From: an uncultured Oscillospiraceae bacterium
Lineage (GTDB): Bacteria; Bacillota_A; Clostridia; Oscillospirales; Oscillospiraceae
Assembly (NCBI GenBank): GCA_944387755.1
Contig: CALXGC010000139.1
Span: forward strand, 1 to 24,282
Length of the DNA stretch: 24,282 bases
Direction of reading: 5' to 3'
Translations under genes and position numbers: made by a program
Shown: positions 8,682 to 14,730 of the stretch, one piece after another
Position numbering within the stretch: position 1 is the first letter of the stretch
Layout of the letters: every line of letters begins with the position of its first letter
Notes under the pieces: model-generated
Seen by the model: only the letters and a program-made list of their open reading frames with translations
The model's database searches: none
What the model was told of the DNA's origin: nothing

Positions 8682-8846
8682 ATGGGCAAGTACGACGAGA
8701 ACGAGGACCTGCGCCAGGAGCTGCTGTCCAATGTGTATGCCGGGGCGTTTTCCGGTCTGGGGGCCATGCTGCTGGACGAGGACCGCATCCGCAAGGCGGA
8801 TTCGGAGGAGCTGAAGCAGATCGCCAGACAGTACGGCTACCGCTGA
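8682..8846 (+). CDS. Small acidic hypothetical protein (54 aa)
   Basis: ATG 8682 follows AAAGGAGG at ideal spacing and a recognisable promoter. The product begins MGKYDENEDLRQELLSNV, and the middle YAGAFSGLGAMLLDEDRI plus the helical tail ADSEELKQIARQYGYR give it a compact, conserved look. There is no signal peptide. I recognise no named family. It ends 73 bases before the alpha-CTD/sigma-like gene; the intervening palindrome leaves it open whether the two are cotranscribed. Confidence 0.75.
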   Translation: MGKYDENEDLRQELLSNVYAGAFSGLGAMLLDEDRIRKADSEELKQIARQYGYR

Positions 8847-8870
8847 GCAGCCGCGAATCCACGGGAGAAA

Positions 8871-8896
8871 GGCCGCCGGAGAGCTCTCCGGCGGCC
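8871..8896. repeat. Perfect 26-bp palindrome upstream of the three-gene operon
   Basis: The half-site GGCCGCCGGAGAG is followed directly by its exact reverse complement with no spacer. As RNA it would form a hairpin; without a T-run it is a weak terminator candidate. As DNA it could be a binding site for one of the operon's own DNA-binding proteins (inference). Confidence 0.8.
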
Positions 8897-8898
8897 TC

Positions 8899-8913
8899 TC
8901 CCCGCAAAGGGGA
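8899..8913 (+). promoter_or_regulatory. Small hairpin covering the ribosome site of the first operon gene
   Basis: TCCCC (8899-8903) and GGGGA (8909-8913) enclose GCAAA. The right arm is the only purine-rich ribosome-site candidate ahead of ATG 8920, so the hairpin could restrain translation. Confidence 0.5.
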
Positions 8914-8919
8914 AGAATT

Positions 8920-11574
8920 ATGACCTATATTCTCAGAGAGGACGGAATTGAGCGCCTCTCTTTTTCCACGCGGACCTATAACTGCCTGCGGCGGGCGGGC
9001 GTTGAGACGGTGGGCCAGCTTCTGGACTTCCCGCCGGAGCGCTGGCCGGAGGTCCACAGCCTGGGCCAGAAGAGCCGGCAGGAGATTGTCCAGCGGGTGG
9101 ACCAGCTCCGGAGCGGCGGAGGCCCCTATGTCCTCACAGACGTCCGGCCGGAGGCGGGACAGCCCCGGCGTCCGGAGCCGGAGCGCTTTAGCCTGCCGGT
9201 TGAGCGCCTGGGCCTGTCTCCCAGGGCGGTCAACTGCCTGAAGGGGGCGGAGATCCACACCCTGCGGGAACTGATGGGGGAGACGGAGCGGTCCCTGAAG
9301 CAGATTCCCCGCATGGGGACGAAGACCCTCCAGGAGGTGCTGGACAAGCTGGAGGAGCTGGCCTGGGAGTGGAGGACGGACGCCCAGAGCTCCGGAGACG
9401 CCAGAGCGGAGCGGCTGGGCCGGCTGGCAGAGGAATTTGCCCAGTTTCTCCCCATATCCAGGGGGGAGCTGCTGCGGATGGCCGCGGCCTGTCAGGAGGC
9501 GTGCCCGGAGGGGAACGCCTGCGCGGTGGCGGAGCAGCTCTACCGGCAGGACGCTGTCCGGACGGCGGCCCGGAAGGCGCTGACGGAGCTGCTGGAGAAG
9601 CGGCAGGAGGGCATGAGCCGCGCCGCCCTGCTGGCGGCGCTCCCCGGAAGGCCCGGCCCGGAGGTGCTGGACGGCCTGCTGGAGGAGCTGCTCCGCCGGG
9701 AGGCGGTCTCCTGCCAGGGAGAACTGGTCACGCGCCGGTATCCCACCGCCCTGGAGTTTGTCCAGACGCTCTCCAACCAGCGGGAGCGGGACATGCTTCT
9801 GGCGCGCCTGGAGGGCGAGACCCTGGAGAGCGTGGGGCAGCGCTACCATGTGACGCGGGAGCGGGTGCGTCAGATTACGGCGCGGGCCCTGGAGCACCGG
9901 CCCCGCCTGCGGGAGGACCGGTACCGGGATATGTTCGACCGCTATGAGTTTACCAGGGAGGATTTTTTCCTGTCCTTTGACGAGCCGCCGGAGACCTATG
10001 AGTATCTGGAGATGCTCCGGCCCCGGCGGGAGCGGCGGCCTCTGGCGGAGCTGCTGGAGGATGAGTCTGTCTCCGTGGCGGACCGGCGCAGGGTGGAGCG
10101 GGCGGTCTATAAGCGCTTTGTCACCCTGGACGGGGCGCGGGTGGAGAGAAGCCGCCCGGCTCTGGCCCGGTATGTGGTGCAGACCCGCTGCCAGGAGATG
10201 ACCACCATGGACGAATTTATGCAGCGCTACCGGGAACTGCTGGAGTCCATCGGCCTGGAGGGGGAGGCCTCCCTGACCATTGACGCCCGTACCTATGAGA
10301 ACAAGCTGAGCGCCTGCGGCTATGTGCTGTGGAGCCAGTGGCACCGCTTCCGCTACTACCCCATCCGGCAGCGGGAGTACGGCCCCCTGCTGGAGGAGCT
10401 GGAGCTGGAGCAGTATGAGGACCTGGAGATCTCCGCCCGGAAGCTGTTTCGGGACTCCCCGGCGCTGATGGAGGAGTACGACGTCCGGGACGAGTATGAG
10501 CTGCACAACCTGCTGAAAAAAATCTGGCCGGAGTCCGGGCGGAGCGGCCGGGTTCAGTTCAAAAAAATGCCGACCATCGAGATTGGAACGCCGGACCGGG
10601 ACCAGCAGGTGAAGGACCTGCTGCTGGAGTACGCCCCCATCTCCAACACGGAGCTGGCCCAGCGGTATGAGGAGCGCTATGGGGCCCGCAGCGCCACCGT
10701 ACTGGCCAACTACTTCTCCTGCATCGACCGGTATCTGTACAACGGCGTGTACCGCATCGACCGGCCCCACCTGGCTCCGGAGCAGCGGGAGCGGCTGCTC
10801 CAGGTGCTGGACGGAGATTTTTACCGCTTCGCGGAGCTGCGCCGCATCTATCAGCGGGAGTTTCCCGGCGAGAAGCTGGAGCAGCTGAACGCCTACACTC
10901 TGAAGGACCTGGGGTTTCACGTCTACGGGGACTATGTGGTCGGCGGCCGCTTCTCCGGGGCGGCGGACTACTTCCGCTCTGTGCTGCTGGGGGATGGAAT
11001 CTCCGACCTGCGGGAGATGGGGAAGCGGCTGGCCGGCCTCCCCAGCTACGCCGCGCTGCTGATGAAGATGAAGGGGGCGCGGGAGATTGTGGAGTTCTCC
11101 CCCAACCAGTACATCTCTCAGGCGCGGCTTCAGGAGGGGGGCGTTGCCCCGGAGGATTTGGAGGGCTTCTGCGCCGCCGTCCGGCGGCAGGTGAAGCCGG
11201 GAGAGTACTTTACCGTCGCCTCCCTCCGGCGGGAGGGCTTTACAGACCCCCTGGAGGACACCGGATTTGACGACTGGTTCTATGGCTCTCTGCTGGCGGA
11301 GGACCGGGACCGCTTCTCCTGCCGCCGGATGGGGGGGACGCGGGTGTTTTTCTGCGGGAAAAAAGAGGTCTACCTGATCGACTTTTTGCGCTGGGTTGTG
11401 GAACCGGAGGGCCACTGGGACCTGTATGACCTGAAGGAATACCTGGAGGAGCACTACGGCGTGGCGCTGCCCACAGAGAAAATTATAGAGAACGTCCGGG
11501 AATCCGACCTCTACTACGACTCCATCATGGAGGCGGTCTACCTGGACTACGACACCTATTTTGAGGAGATTTGA
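8920..11574 (+). CDS. Tandem alpha-CTD / sigma region-4-like protein, first gene of putative three-gene system
   Basis: An 884-residue protein. Residues about 9-64 (ERLSFSTRTYNCLRRAG, VGQLLDFPPERW, LGQKSRQEI) and 90-147 (VERLGLSPRAVNCLKGAE, MGTKTLQEVLDKL) both match the helix-hairpin-helix fold of the RNA polymerase alpha C-terminal domain. Residues about 286-330 resemble sigma-70 region 4, with a recognition helix VTRERVRQITARALEH almost identical to RpoD region 4.2. The rest, about 550 residues, is charged and helical with no family I recognise; it contains repeated winged-helix-like segments (for example PISNTELAQRYEERYG). No catalytic motif is evident. The gene has Arg/Glu-rich, GC-rich codons like its neighbours and is followed by a ParB-like gene two bases later, so the products probably work together. 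It may bind promoter or polymerase targets and recruit the partners; function is unproven. Confidence 0.85.
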   Translation: MTYILREDGIERLSFSTRTYNCLRRAGVETVGQLLDFPPERWPEVHSLGQKSRQEIVQRVDQLRSGGGPYVLTDVRPEAGQPRRPEPERFSLPVERLGLSPRAVNCLKGAEIHTLRELMGETERSLKQIPRMGTKTLQEVLDKLEELAWEWRTDAQSSGDARAERLGRLAEEFAQFLPISRGELLRMAAACQEACPEGNACAVAEQLYRQDAVRTAARKALTELLEKRQEGMSRAALLAALPGRPGPEVLDGLLEELLRREAVSCQGELVTRRYPTALEFVQTLSNQRERDMLLARLEGETLESVGQRYHVTRERVRQITARALEHRPRLREDRYRDMFDRYEFTREDFFLSFDEPPETYEYLEMLRPRRERRPLAELLEDESVSVADRRRVERAVYKRFVTLDGARVERSRPALARYVVQTRCQEMTTMDEFMQRYRELLESIGLEGEASLTIDARTYENKLSACGYVLWSQWHRFRYYPIRQREYGPLLEELELEQYEDLEISARKLFRDSPALMEEYDVRDEYELHNLLKKIWPESGRSGRVQFKKMPTIEIGTPDRDQQVKDLLLEYAPISNTELAQRYEERYGARSATVLANYFSCIDRYLYNGVYRIDRPHLAPEQRERLLQVLDGDFYRFAELRRIYQREFPGEKLEQLNAYTLKDLGFHVYGDYVVGGRFSGAADYFRSVLLGDGISDLREMGKRLAGLPSYAALLMKMKGAREIVEFSPNQYISQARLQEGGVAPEDLEGFCAAVRRQVKPGEYFTVASLRREGFTDPLEDTGFDDWFYGSLLAEDRDRFSCRRMGGTRVFFCGKKEVYLIDFLRWVVEPEGHWDLYDLKEYLEEHYGVALPTEKIIENVRESDLYYDSIMEAVYLDYDTYFEEI

Positions 11575-11576
11575 CC

Positions 11577-12788
11577 ATGAATTTATTGCAGGACGGCGTG
11601 GCGCAGCACGCTGTGATTCCCACCAGTCTGACCCGAAAGCTGACCATCGACGGCATCACAGAGGCCTATCCAGTCTATAAAATCCGTCTGGACTGGCTGT
11701 ACTACAACGACCAGAACGACCGCATCGCCACCTGGATCAGCCAGTACCGCTCCCAGCACGGCGGGCAGGCCCCGGACCCGGAGGACCGGGAGGCCTATAA
11801 CACCGTCATTGAGCGCTTTATTGTGGAGAGCAACCCGGAGGCCCTGCGGAAGACCCGCGCCAACATCAAGCTGGTGGACCAGCGGGAGCCCGGCGTGGCG
11901 CTCAACGACGGCCGGATCATCGACGGCAACCGCCGCTTCACCTGCCTGCGGGAGCTGGCGCCCTCCAGCCCGCGCTTTCAATTCTTCGAGGCGGTGATTC
12001 TGGACCGGAGCCTGGAGACCAGCGCCAAGGAGATCAAGCTGCTGGAGCTGTCCATCCAGCACGGCGAGGAGAGCAAGGTGGACTACGACCCCATCGACCG
12101 GCTGGTGGGCCTCTATCAGGACATCCTGAAGACCCATCTTCTCACCGTGGAGGAGTACGCCCGGAGCACCAACGAGACGGAGCGGGACGTGAAGAACCGC
12201 CTGGAGCTGGCCCAGCTTCTGGCGGAGTTTTTGGAGTTTATCAACGCCCCGGAGCAGTTCTACATCGCCCGGGATCTGCAGATTTACTACCCCCTGGACG
12301 AGCTGCAGAAGCTGCTGCGCAAGTGCCGCACCGAGGACGAGCGGGAGGATTTGAAGAACAGCGTGTTCGTCAACATCCTCATGGAGCCCACCGGGGATAT
12401 GACCCGGTTCGTGCGGGAGTTTAAGAAAATTATGGGCAGCGAGTACCAGGAGGAGTTTCTGGCCGAGCAGAAGGAGATTGCGGAAAAGGTGCTGGACCGC
12501 CTGCCCCAGACGGGGGAGATGAGCGCCAAGGTAATCCGGGAGCAGGTCCGCACGGACGAGGAGAGCCGGGAGGCGCTGGACCGCTCCAGGGACAGATACC
12601 TGACCCGCACCAAAAAGACGGAGACCCGCAACCGTCCCATCCAGATGGCGGAGAAGGCCACCGACTGTCTGGAGAGCATCGACCAGAATATTCTGAAAAA
12701 GCTCAGCGACAGCGAGCTGCGGCGGATGCACCGGCAGCTGGCCCTGCTGGAGCAGCGTCTGGCGGACATCAAGGCCAGCCTGCCCTGA
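11577..12788 (+). CDS. ParB-like protein, second gene of putative three-gene system
   Basis: A 403-residue protein. ATG 11577 is chosen because GAGGAG (11563-11568) lies eight bases upstream; a TTG at 11571 is too close. A ParB/sulfiredoxin-fold N-terminal domain is suggested by VALNDGRIIDGNRRFTCLRE: D116-G-N-R-R120 corresponds to the GxRR nucleotide-binding box of ParB. The following helical part (LLTVEEYARSTNETERDVKNRLELAQLL) resembles the ParB HTH region. The C-terminal third is helical and charged (ARSTNE to LAQLL, then KKTETRNRPIQMAEKATD), perhaps a coiled-coil partner-binding region. ParB-type domains are CTP-dependent clamps or nuclease-like; which applies here is unknown. It is coupled to the upstream gene (two-base gap) and lies 18 bases ahead of the helicase gene. 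No ParA gene is present, so chromosome segregation is unlikely. Confidence 0.78.
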   Translation: MNLLQDGVAQHAVIPTSLTRKLTIDGITEAYPVYKIRLDWLYYNDQNDRIATWISQYRSQHGGQAPDPEDREAYNTVIERFIVESNPEALRKTRANIKLVDQREPGVALNDGRIIDGNRRFTCLRELAPSSPRFQFFEAVILDRSLETSAKEIKLLELSIQHGEESKVDYDPIDRLVGLYQDILKTHLLTVEEYARSTNETERDVKNRLELAQLLAEFLEFINAPEQFYIARDLQIYYPLDELQKLLRKCRTEDEREDLKNSVFVNILMEPTGDMTRFVREFKKIMGSEYQEEFLAEQKEIAEKVLDRLPQTGEMSAKVIREQVRTDEESREALDRSRDRYLTRTKKTETRNRPIQMAEKATDCLESIDQNILKKLSDSELRRMHRQLALLEQRLADIKASLP

Positions 12789-12806
12789 GTTCCGGGAGGG
12801 GCGGTT

Positions 12807-14678
12807 ATGGACGGATGGACGCTGGACTATGACGGCAGGCTCCGCCTCCGAATGCCGCCGGAGGCGGGGGAGGCGGTGCGCGCCGGAAGCTTTTATAAGC
12901 TCTCCCTCCGGCGCTATATGGATGGATACGCGGACGGAGTGTTCTCCGGCAGGGCGTCTTTGACCTATCTGGACTTCAAGCGGGTGCTGGAGCTGTGCCG
13001 CCGGGAGTGCGGCAGGCGGGGCGTCCCATTTACCGCCGCACCGGCTCTGGAGGCGTATATCGCCGGGCGGGAAAACCGCCTGGAGATCCGCGCCCGTCTG
13101 GGCCTGGAGATCAAAAACCAGGACCCGAAGCTTCAGGAGCGGTTTCAGGCCTACCGCGGCGCGGTGGACAGGGCCATGGTCCGTCCTCTGCGGGAGCGGC
13201 AGATGTGGGACTCCTTCTTCCTGTGCTGGATGCGCCGGGCGGCCAATTTCTCCGTGCCGGGGGCGGGCAAGACCGCCGCGGCGCTGGGCATGTACGCCTA
13301 TCTGAAGGGGGCGGGCAAGGTAAAGCGGATGATTGTGGTCTGTCCCAAGAGCGCCTTCGGCTCCTGGATAGACGAATTTTCCGCCTCCTTCGGGGAGCGG
13401 GAGCCCCTCCGGCTGCTGAATCTCCACGGCCCCCGGTACGGGACCGCCGCCGCCCGCCGGGCGGCGCTGCGGTACGACGGCGGACGGGCCAATTTGATTC
13501 TGGTCAACTATGAGCTGGCGGGCAGCCTGCTGGAGGACCTGATTCCCCTGGCGCAGTCCCAGGCGATGCTGATCTTCGACGAGGTGCACAAGGTCAAGCG
13601 GGTGAACGGGGAGTACGCCGCCGCCGCCCTGGCGCTGGCCAGAGCGGCGGGATACGTCACCGCCATGACGGGTACGCCCATCCCCAACACCTATCTGGAC
13701 CTGTACAACCTGCTGCACATCCTGTTCCCCGACGAGTATGAGGAATTTTTCGGCTTCTCCATCCCCGTCCTCCGGGATCCCACCCCCCTGGAGCGGGAGC
13801 AGATCAACCGGAAGCTCCAGCCCTTCTTCTGCCGGACCACCAAGGAGCAGCTCGCCGTACCCGCCGCCAATCCGGACGCGCTGCTGGCCTGTCCGGCCAG
13901 CGAGCGGGAGAACCGCCTGCTGCGCCTGCTGGAGATGCGGTACCGCCGGAACCGCCTGCCCCTGTTCCTGCGGATTTTGCAGCTGGAGACCGACCCGAAG
14001 CTGCTGCTCCAAAAGCTGGACCTGGGGGAGTTCCGGTGGCTGCTGGACGACCAGGCCCCCGCCGGGGAGATCGACTTTGCCGACTACAGCCAGGAGGTCC
14101 GGCAGCTCATCCTGGACAGTCCGCCCTCCACAAAATTCCTCCGGTGCGTGGAACAGGTGCTCTCGTTGACCCGCCGGGGGAGGACGGCCGTTGTCTGGTG
14201 CGTTTTCCTGGACTCCATCCGCAGTCTGGCCGCCGCCCTGGAGGCGCGGGGCGTCTGCGTCCGCTGCATTTACGGCGCGGTGCCTCTGGAGGAGCGGCAG
14301 CAGATTCTCACAGCCTTCCGCTCCGGCCAGGTTCAGGTCCTGATTACCAATCCCCACACCCTGGCGGAGTCTGTCTCCCTGCACAGCGTCTGCCACGACG
14401 CGGTCTATTACGAGTACAGCTATAATCTGGTCCACCTCCTCCAGTCCAAGGACCGGATTCACCGCCTGGGCCTTCCGCCGGGGCAGTACACCCAGTATAC
14501 CTACCTCCAGGTGGAGTATTGGACAGAAAACGGTCCCTGGTCCATGGAGGGCCAGGTATACCGGCGGCTGCGGGAGAAGGAACAGACCATGCGCAGCGCC
14601 ATCGACCGGCAGGTCCTGGAGGTTCAGCCCACCAGTCAGGAGGACCTGGAGGTCATCTTTGGGGACCTCCGCCCGTAA
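12807..14678 (+). CDS. SNF2-like DEAD/DEAH helicase, third gene of putative three-gene system
   Basis: A 623-residue two-lobed superfamily-2 ATPase. Motif I is PGAGKT (residues 151-156), Ia lies in MIVVCPKSAFGSWIDEF, motif II is DEVH (258-261), and motif III is TGTP (288-291). The second lobe has RTAVVWCVFLDSIRSLAAAL (motif IV), VLITNPHTLAESVSLH (motif V) and SKDRIHRLG with R550 and R553 (motif VI). The order and the PKSAFGSW and RIHRLG sequences place it among SNF2-like translocases rather than DEAD RNA helicases. The N-terminal 130 residues are unassigned. GGGAGGGG precedes ATG 12807. It should use ATP to move on double-stranded DNA and remodel or sense protein-DNA complexes; pairing with a ParB-like and a polymerase-like protein is unusual. 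Confidence 0.85.
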   Translation: MDGWTLDYDGRLRLRMPPEAGEAVRAGSFYKLSLRRYMDGYADGVFSGRASLTYLDFKRVLELCRRECGRRGVPFTAAPALEAYIAGRENRLEIRARLGLEIKNQDPKLQERFQAYRGAVDRAMVRPLRERQMWDSFFLCWMRRAANFSVPGAGKTAAALGMYAYLKGAGKVKRMIVVCPKSAFGSWIDEFSASFGEREPLRLLNLHGPRYGTAAARRAALRYDGGRANLILVNYELAGSLLEDLIPLAQSQAMLIFDEVHKVKRVNGEYAAAALALARAAGYVTAMTGTPIPNTYLDLYNLLHILFPDEYEEFFGFSIPVLRDPTPLEREQINRKLQPFFCRTTKEQLAVPAANPDALLACPASERENRLLRLLEMRYRRNRLPLFLRILQLETDPKLLLQKLDLGEFRWLLDDQAPAGEIDFADYSQEVRQLILDSPPSTKFLRCVEQVLSLTRRGRTAVVWCVFLDSIRSLAAALEARGVCVRCIYGAVPLEERQQILTAFRSGQVQVLITNPHTLAESVSLHSVCHDAVYYEYSYNLVHLLQSKDRIHRLGLPPGQYTQYTYLQVEYWTENGPWSMEGQVYRRLREKEQTMRSAIDRQVLEVQPTSQEDLEVIFGDLRP

Positions 14679-14683
14679 AAATA

Positions 14684-14730
14684 AAAACGCCGGAGCCGCC
14701 CGCCGTCTGGCGGAGGCTCCGGCGTTTTTT
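14684..14730. terminator. Bidirectional terminator between convergent genes
   Basis: AAAAACGCCGGAGCC and GGCTCCGGCGTTTTTT form a long stem with an internal GCCGCC/GGCGG part. The A-run on one side and T-run on the other serve the helicase operon on the plus strand and the flavin-reductase gene on the minus strand. Confidence 0.9.

Follow-up and report, generated by a model that had tools for sequence, protein, structure and literature searches.

A stretch of 24,282 nucleotides from an uncultured Oscillospiraceae bacterium (assembly GCA_944387755.1, contig CALXGC010000139.1), the whole of which is referred to here as the window, carries three adjacent genes, g1, g2 and g3, that probably encode an as yet unnamed defence system. 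The first gene encodes a putative DNA-reading protein in which alphaCTD and sigma region 4 domains, as known from RNA polymerase, stand ahead of a conserved C-terminal module, the second a ParB-like protein and the third a SNF2 translocase. The best reading is that of a defence module kin to restriction systems and led to its targets by promoter-like DNA, to which about even chances are given, and the strongest and, on comparison of the protein sequences, apparently decisive clue is that in other proteins the alphaCTD and sigma region 4 half of g1 is swapped for a Sau3AI-type reader.

The half of g1 that is swapped in other proteins

The first-pass annotation of the window had called g1 polymerase-like, which it is not, as g1 joins two domains of the kind that reads the UP element (alphaCTD) and one of the kind that reads the -35 box (sigma region 4) to a C-terminal module. 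The two alphaCTD domains and the sigma region 4 that the annotation had seen are borne out by domain search and by the residues that are kept. In alphaCTD copy 1 the residues R18, N21, G49, K51 and S52 are taken to be the counterparts of E. coli R265, N268, G296, K298 and S299, and the contact roles given to residues of alphaCTD and sigma region 4 are likewise presumed. Both putative readers appear to keep most of their DNA-contact residues: among 70 alphaCTD copies in relatives of g1 the equivalents of R265, N268, G296 and S/T299 are found in 67, 63, 61 and 63, and in the R-E-R-V-R-Q helix of sigma region 4 the first arginine is kept in 34 of 35 proteins, the glutamate and the other two arginines in 33 each and the glutamine in all 35 (counts exclude loci L001, L010 and L066, and include L073, L074 and L076). 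Among the structure matches of g1 is the crystal 3n97, where alphaCTD and sigma region 4, the same pair as in g1, are seated on the UP/-35 DNA of one promoter. Structure matches for the C-terminal part of g1 were not interpreted, the aligner rows lying mainly on residues 83-149 with some on 210-274.

A hidden Markov model (HMM) of the C-terminal module matches a Priestia 'MutH/Sau3AI' protein at residues 221-508 (2e-47), an Exiguobacterium protein (3e-45) and all nine further proteins that were retrieved with the Priestia module, of which two are named, both from Bacillaceae (Peribacillus and Bacillus), with PF02976 MutH listed for eight of the nine. The N-terminal part of the Priestia protein matches the C-terminal half of Sau3AI (PDB 7xm0 and 2reu, 2e-17; 4pxg residues 313-475), and the HMMs for alphaCTD and sigma region 4 have no match in any of the 11 fusion proteins. 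At three columns that presumably hold the catalytic residues of Sau3AI-like enzymes, D-E-K is found in five of five Sau3AI-like cutting halves, with D and E kept in none of the 11 fusions, and the fused Sau3AI-type reader would then be without two of its three catalytic residues. As the 11 fusions swap the N-terminal half, the same conserved module seems to be paired with a restriction-type reader in some proteins and with a promoter reader in others, and the alphaCTD and sigma region 4 half of g1 would accordingly occupy the reader slot of a restriction enzyme.

The reader half of g1 is variable amongst its relatives, with the number of alphaCTD copies ranging from 0 to 3. A shorter second copy of g1 lies between g1 and the ParB gene in three loci (L013 8013-10004, L014 8022-10004 and L066 10294-12285), and perhaps serves as the partner in a heteromer. 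Coriobacterial g1 proteins reach 1578 amino acids (L027 5259-9995, L024 5147-8821), that of L027 being without a Pfam domain; as neither alphaCTD nor sigma region 4 is seen in them, they possibly carry further kinds of reader. A protein of 1054 amino acids (L076 3624-6788) has one alphaCTD and a sigma region 4 match, in a genome without a ParB of the g2 family.

The partner proteins and known systems

No Pfam, NCBIfam, PHROG or PADLOC family matches g2 up to an E-value of 1. The DGNRR box noticed in the first pass is present, and g2 is predicted to adopt a ParB/KorB-type fold in its N-terminal and helix-turn-helix parts. It shares these parts and the GxRR box with the clamps ParB, Noc and KorB, but its ENxQR motif is replaced and its partner is SNF2 rather than ParA; a family search that covered the three genes found no ParA among them. 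The SNF2 motifs of g3 (Table 1) were likewise seen as first described. Among the matches listed there is no nuclease domain in g1, g2 or g3, PLD and HEPN domains occurring only in relatives, and family search finds no methylase domain in the three proteins.

That the three genes could not be matched to a described system still holds, as PADLOC recognises single domains only (PglW and MzaA for g1; DpdE, ZorD and others for g3), and the NCBIfam cut-offs are reached neither by the best 25 of 29 matches for g1 nor by any of the 19 for g3. PglW of type 2 BREX resembles g1 in being a defence protein with an RNA polymerase alphaCTD-like domain followed by winged-helix domains, going by the text available from PMC12839542, but only the alphaCTD stretch of g1 matches it (42.4 bits against a cut-off of 990), and g1 has no kinase or NERD family. 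MzaA of MZA also has a sigma-70-like segment within a defence protein, with g1 scoring 26.6 bits against a cut-off of 800. The helicases DpdE, DrmD, ZorD and PbeA share the SNF2 core with g3, yet for DrmD, DpdE and ZorD the likeness is that core alone (31.7, 27.6 and 17.3 bits against cut-offs of 610, 500 and 1500), and PbeA resembles the PLD half of the Priestia relative (2e-65).

The ParB-like partner has precedents in which it is fused to HEPN. A survey of HEPN domains lists HEPN–ParB fusions (PMC3710099), and the Swt1-like fusion Saro_3948 in its Table 1 has the same architecture as the g2 of some relatives, in which HEPN-ParB is followed by g1 and a HIRAN gene, although g1, HIRAN and SNF2 partners are not mentioned in the portion of that survey consulted. 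The portions consulted of PMC3710099, PMC12839542, PMC5512222 and PMC10853773 document ParB fused to HEPN, PglW with its alphaCTD-like domain, and ParB and SNF2 in conflict systems, with no mention of the trio, and among the matches listed (title and start of abstract) no paper of the open-access PMC literature, a corpus that leaves out closed journals and preprints, describes the trio itself.

Also among the nearest known systems are restriction-modification (R-M) systems, in particular the Sau3AI type, which comprises a MutH-fold restriction endonuclease, a C5-methylase and Vsr, and whose C-terminal domain is the one fused to the g1 module in Priestia, Exiguobacterium and the nine other proteins. 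The window differs from it in that no methylase or Sau3AI-type enzyme was found, the reader being alphaCTD and sigma region 4 and the motor ParB–SNF2. Homology to R-M runs through ParB–SNF2 in type III and C5-methylase loci and through the fusion of the g1 module to the Sau3AI-type reader; among the matches listed for the three proteins of the window operon there is neither the self-protecting methyltransferase nor the nuclease that mark R-M.

Occurrence, neighbours and layout

The three genes occur together in other genomes. Scanning a single genome for each species turned up 45 loci that hold a g2 relative (numbered with L; genomes with G), 19 of which have g1–ParB–SNF2, 13 HEPN-ParB–g1–HIRAN and one g1–ParB–HIRAN; ten are cut by contig ends, and L043 (truncated ParB) and L045 (22% identity) are without partners. 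The trio is also on four plasmid records. In 37 of 39 testable loci g1 adjoins ParB, and in 35 of those 37 the third gene is SNF2 or HIRAN, with L003 and L010 in the count looking like near relatives. A PLD domain precedes SNF2 in seven of the 19 trios, and the HEPN Rx4H motif is seen in 14 of 15 long ParB open reading frames (ORFs), the exception (L018) having no HEPN match. Pfam itself identified PLD in L013, Swt1-type HEPN in L025 and L070 and HIRAN in L025 and L030, other loci being assigned by similarity to these and other members.

The set is found in two phyla, and by record title the hosts of the 45 loci include Oscillospiraceae, Clostridium, Paenibacillus, Vagococcus, Butyrivibrio, Selenomonas and Erysipelotrichaceae, and in Actinomycetota Coriobacteriaceae. 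The set is rare and patchy, with relatives in about 1-3% of sampled genomes, seeds included: g2 relatives are in 7/250 genomes of one family (three seeds) and 4/299 of another (one seed), and the C-terminal part of g1 is in 5/348 genomes of the Paenibacillus phylum (one seed, one weak match) and 2/246 of the Collinsella phylum (one seed). Since the set is so patchy a housekeeping role is unlikely. A search that set out from g1 alone returned, outside the seeds, the known L022 trio (G888), a trio with g1 in pieces (G908), a genome with g1 and ParB–PLD-SNF2 on separate contigs (G556), one with g1 and no ParB (G579) and a weak g1 match without ParB (G780). Genes for AAA (MoxR-like), VWA (DUF2201), LRR or BRCT proteins lie near L006, L025 and the truncated L043.

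Relatives of g2 are found in 66 of 72,556 plasmid records, 52 of them from Enterococcus, and the four trios were met among 11 records examined, from E. faecalis, E. casseliflavus and two E. lactis. On both E. lactis plasmids HsdM–HsdS–HsdR is directly upstream of the trio. Within genomes, a Sau3AI-like MutH enzyme and a C5-methylase lie by the trio in L011, L016, L020 and L022, and MutH with a fragment of a C5-methylase at a contig edge in L019; a Vsr gene is also present in L016, L020 and L022, confirmed by Pfam in L022 only. MutH is beside five of 19 trios, four of these of the PLD type, against 2/199 whole genomes of the Paenibacillus phylum, which puts the linkage far from chance (binomial 1e-6, Fisher 6e-5), with these rough values weakened by the treatment of related loci as independent and by L019 coming from another phylum than the base-rate sample. 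An MmeI enzyme is upstream in L026.

A census of flanking genes took up to five nearest ORFs per locus (170, falling to 160 on removal of those over 900 amino acids and thinned at random to 133) and a control of 220 ORFs of up to 900 amino acids, thinned at random to 131. PADLOC families numbered 156 in the flank ORFs and 64 in the control; type II methylases and restriction endonucleases are among the best 25 flank families and not among the best 25 control families listed, and the control matches listed include other defence models (reverse transcriptases, Cas1, SoFic). This excess is suggestive only, as best-25 lists are being compared and the Pfam census covered flank ORFs alone.

More distant relatives of g2 and g3 also form ParB–SNF2 pairs within R-M loci that have no g1. 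Mod–Res–ParB–SNF2 operons of type III R-M are seen in L128-L131 and L142 and, with Res split by a transposase gene, in L144, and in part in L132, L137 and L143, where Mod or SNF2 is cut or not seen; some copies of this type III extension are on Enterococcus and Lactobacillaceae plasmids. A C5-methylase–ParB–SNF2–NOV_C arrangement occurs in L069, L072 and L133, and in L138 with the methylase on the opposite side (C5-methylase and NOV_C confirmed by Pfam in L072 only), and L071 has a BanI/DpnII-type enzyme upstream. Of the ParB–PLD-SNF2 loci, those of Priestia, L. plantarum and one of two Exiguobacterium plasmids have a neighbouring gene of the C5-methylase, Vsr or MutH-like kind, none of which was detected on the second such plasmid (L139). 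On a tree built from 56 ParB sequences, drawn with a midpoint root for display only and with long branches for L145 and L137, nine contexts require eight changes, the fewest possible. The 40 g1-linked rows, L070 without g1 counted among them, come together at a node with moderate support (85/79), which is drawn open.

The layout first described for the window, with the three genes all reading the same way and 2 and 18 bases between them, is as found (Table 1), the likely start of g2 being the ATG at 11577 that most relatives use. Of the two structures said to bound the operon the terminator stands, as a terminator-like repeat, and a role for the palindrome probably does not: as an operator or parS it has no counterpart upstream of 10 relatives, except for a 10-base palindrome in L002, and is for that reason probably outside the system. 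Just upstream of the operon is an ORF of 54 amino acids (8682-8846) without a Pfam family; related ORFs lie close to the system in L002 (7103-6963), L037 (three copies) and L038 as well. The only two flanking genes looked up are a flavoredoxin-like gene and a 642-amino-acid ORF without a PDB match. Flavin-reductase relatives are present in 127/250 genomes, and as the 642-amino-acid ORF adjoins one in none of the 30 best, over up to ~1.5 kb on each side, no empty site was seen.

Table 1. Positions in the window of the operon, its domains and motifs, and bordering repeats
Feature	Position	Strand	Description
g1	8920..11574	+	884 aa; putative DNA-reading subunit: 2x alphaCTD, winged helix, sigma region 4, chain of winged-helix-like units, C-terminal module
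alphaCTD copy 1	8941..9117	+	g1 residues 8-66
alphaCTD copy 2	9190..9363	+	g1 residues 91-148
Winged-helix domain	9547..9741	+	g1 residues 210-274
Sigma region 4 domain, -35 recognition helix TRERVRQ	9757..9915	+	g1 residues 280-332
Conserved C-terminal module	10705..11565	+	g1 residues ~596-882; shared with the 11 fusion proteins, there fused to a Sau3AI-type reader
g2	11571..12788	+	403-405 aa; predicted ParB/KorB/Noc-fold clamp-like protein, long C-terminal helix
DGNRR (GxRR) box of ParB/Srx fold	11922..11936	+	in g2
g3	12807..14678	+	623 aa; SNF2 translocase; no nuclease domain detected
GAGKT (Walker A)	13260-13274	+	SNF2 motif in g3, sequence reading
DEVH (DExH)	13578-13589	+	SNF2 motif in g3, sequence reading
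QSKDRIHR (motif VI)	14442-14465	+	SNF2 motif in g3, sequence reading
Palindrome upstream of g1	8864..8903	.	
Inverted repeat / terminator-like structure	14683..14729	.	3' of operon

Proposed function and alternatives

The first-pass suggestion of an anti-phage or mobile-element-silencing module is favoured by the relatives, as it is their links to R-M, their nuclease and RNase fusions and their carriage on plasmids that make the trio a probable defence system. That its targeting is guided by promoters is a more evenly balanced matter. In such a system g1 would be the targeting subunit that picks the site, binding UP/-35-like promoter DNA on an incoming plasmid or phage and docking ParB through its C-terminal module; ParB would then clamp the DNA at the chosen site and SNF2 would track along it, stripping off RNA polymerase and so silencing it. 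In relatives SNF2 may instead bring in an effector, which would be a nuclease where PLD is fused to SNF2 and an RNase where HEPN is fused to ParB. For the window copy, where no effector is detected, silencing or polymerase stripping seems the likeliest outcome. One guess is that the promoters of the cell itself would be spared through occupancy by RNA polymerase.

A number of observations weigh against this reading. The equivalent of K298 is kept in only 43 of the 70 alphaCTD copies and that of C269 in 18. No alphaCTD is detected in the g1 of L015, L022, L024, L027 and L077 and one only in L019, no sigma region 4 in that of L036, L019, L027 and L077, and both are missing from the additional, shorter g1 copy in L013, L014 and L066. 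The ENxQR motif, which is the CTPase motif of ParB, is degenerate in the g2 family, with LSIQH, LAIQH and similar in its place (in an alignment with four native ParB in frame, three ENxQ and one DNxQ, and a fifth row, L148, out of frame), and profile-profile comparison of the family with native ParB, with the L148 row excluded, is not significant. The genes do not always travel together: G579 has g1 and no ParB, the reverse holds for G462 and for many R-M loci, and a g1 relative is on an IMG/VR viral contig (L127 9821-11665) with no ParB or SNF2 in the 21.7 kb examined. In the window trio itself neither methylase nor nuclease is detected, and no R-M query match was found in the window, nor in the examined flanks of 14 of the 19 genome trios, a search that used few query families.

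The first alternative, which is unlikely, is that g1 is an integrated decoy. Phage proteins such as T4 AsiA, Alt and ModA take over host RNA polymerase, and alphaCTD and sigma region 4, presumably the very parts attacked, could act as baits, so that ParB–SNF2 and the HEPN or PLD effector would be set off once these domains are bound or modified. The varying number of alphaCTD copies would suit this, as would the HEPN RNase fusion, which fits abortive infection. However, the conservation seen in g1 lies in its DNA-contact surface, and in the 11 fusion proteins the same slot holds a Sau3AI-type DNA reader, which is no bait.

Two further alternatives are each given little weight. The module may guard a partner R-M system, as PrrC guards EcoprrI, monitoring its enzymes and acting when they are inhibited, and both the HEPN fusion and the recurrent association with R-M of the type I, Sau3AI and type III kinds are in keeping with a guard; yet the window and most genome trios are without an R-M query match, other families being beyond the few queries used, and at the Priestia locus no separate active Sau3AI cutting domain was seen. 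The other is a regulator of gene expression, or a RapA-like SNF2 that recycles RNA polymerase with a promoter-binding partner, with no part in defence. All of alphaCTD, sigma region 4 and SNF2 are linked to transcription, and the plasmid annotation of g1 is 'sigma factor-like helix-turn-helix DNA-binding protein', but such a role sits poorly with the rarity of the set, its carriage on plasmids and the HEPN, PLD and R-M links of its relatives. Very improbable is a remnant of plasmid or chromosome segregation, or an anti-restriction function of a mobile element, which the ParB fold, the Enterococcus plasmids and, in the text available from PMC5512222, the occurrence of ParB and SNF2 in polyvalent proteins of phages and conjugative elements, where DarB protects DNA from restriction, might suggest, but against which no ParA is listed beside the trio on its four plasmids (in PLSDB tables that are incomplete), ParA is near ParB in only two Exiguobacterium loci among the records examined, and just 4/50,697 phage records have a ParB relative, none covering over 80% of ParB. 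Viral contigs gave no relative for query A1, one for A4 and six for A3.

Returning to the promoter-guided module, a fuller and more tentative proposal is of an immunity in which borrowed RNA polymerase domains would read UP/-35 DNA, with the ParB clamp and SNF2 motor silencing or destroying the foreign DNA, and in which the reader could be exchanged between promoters, Sau3AI-type GATC sites and others. With such an exchangeable reader, ParB–SNF2 and the C-terminal module of g1 would form a chassis of general use that could be reprogrammed. Known restriction systems use short recognition sequences and usually spare self by methylation. Promoter recognition, if true, would tie immunity to a feature that the invader needs for gene expression, and could explain why fragments of polymerase recur in defence proteins such as PglW and MzaA, with the reader swap offering a direct, testable handle on targeting.

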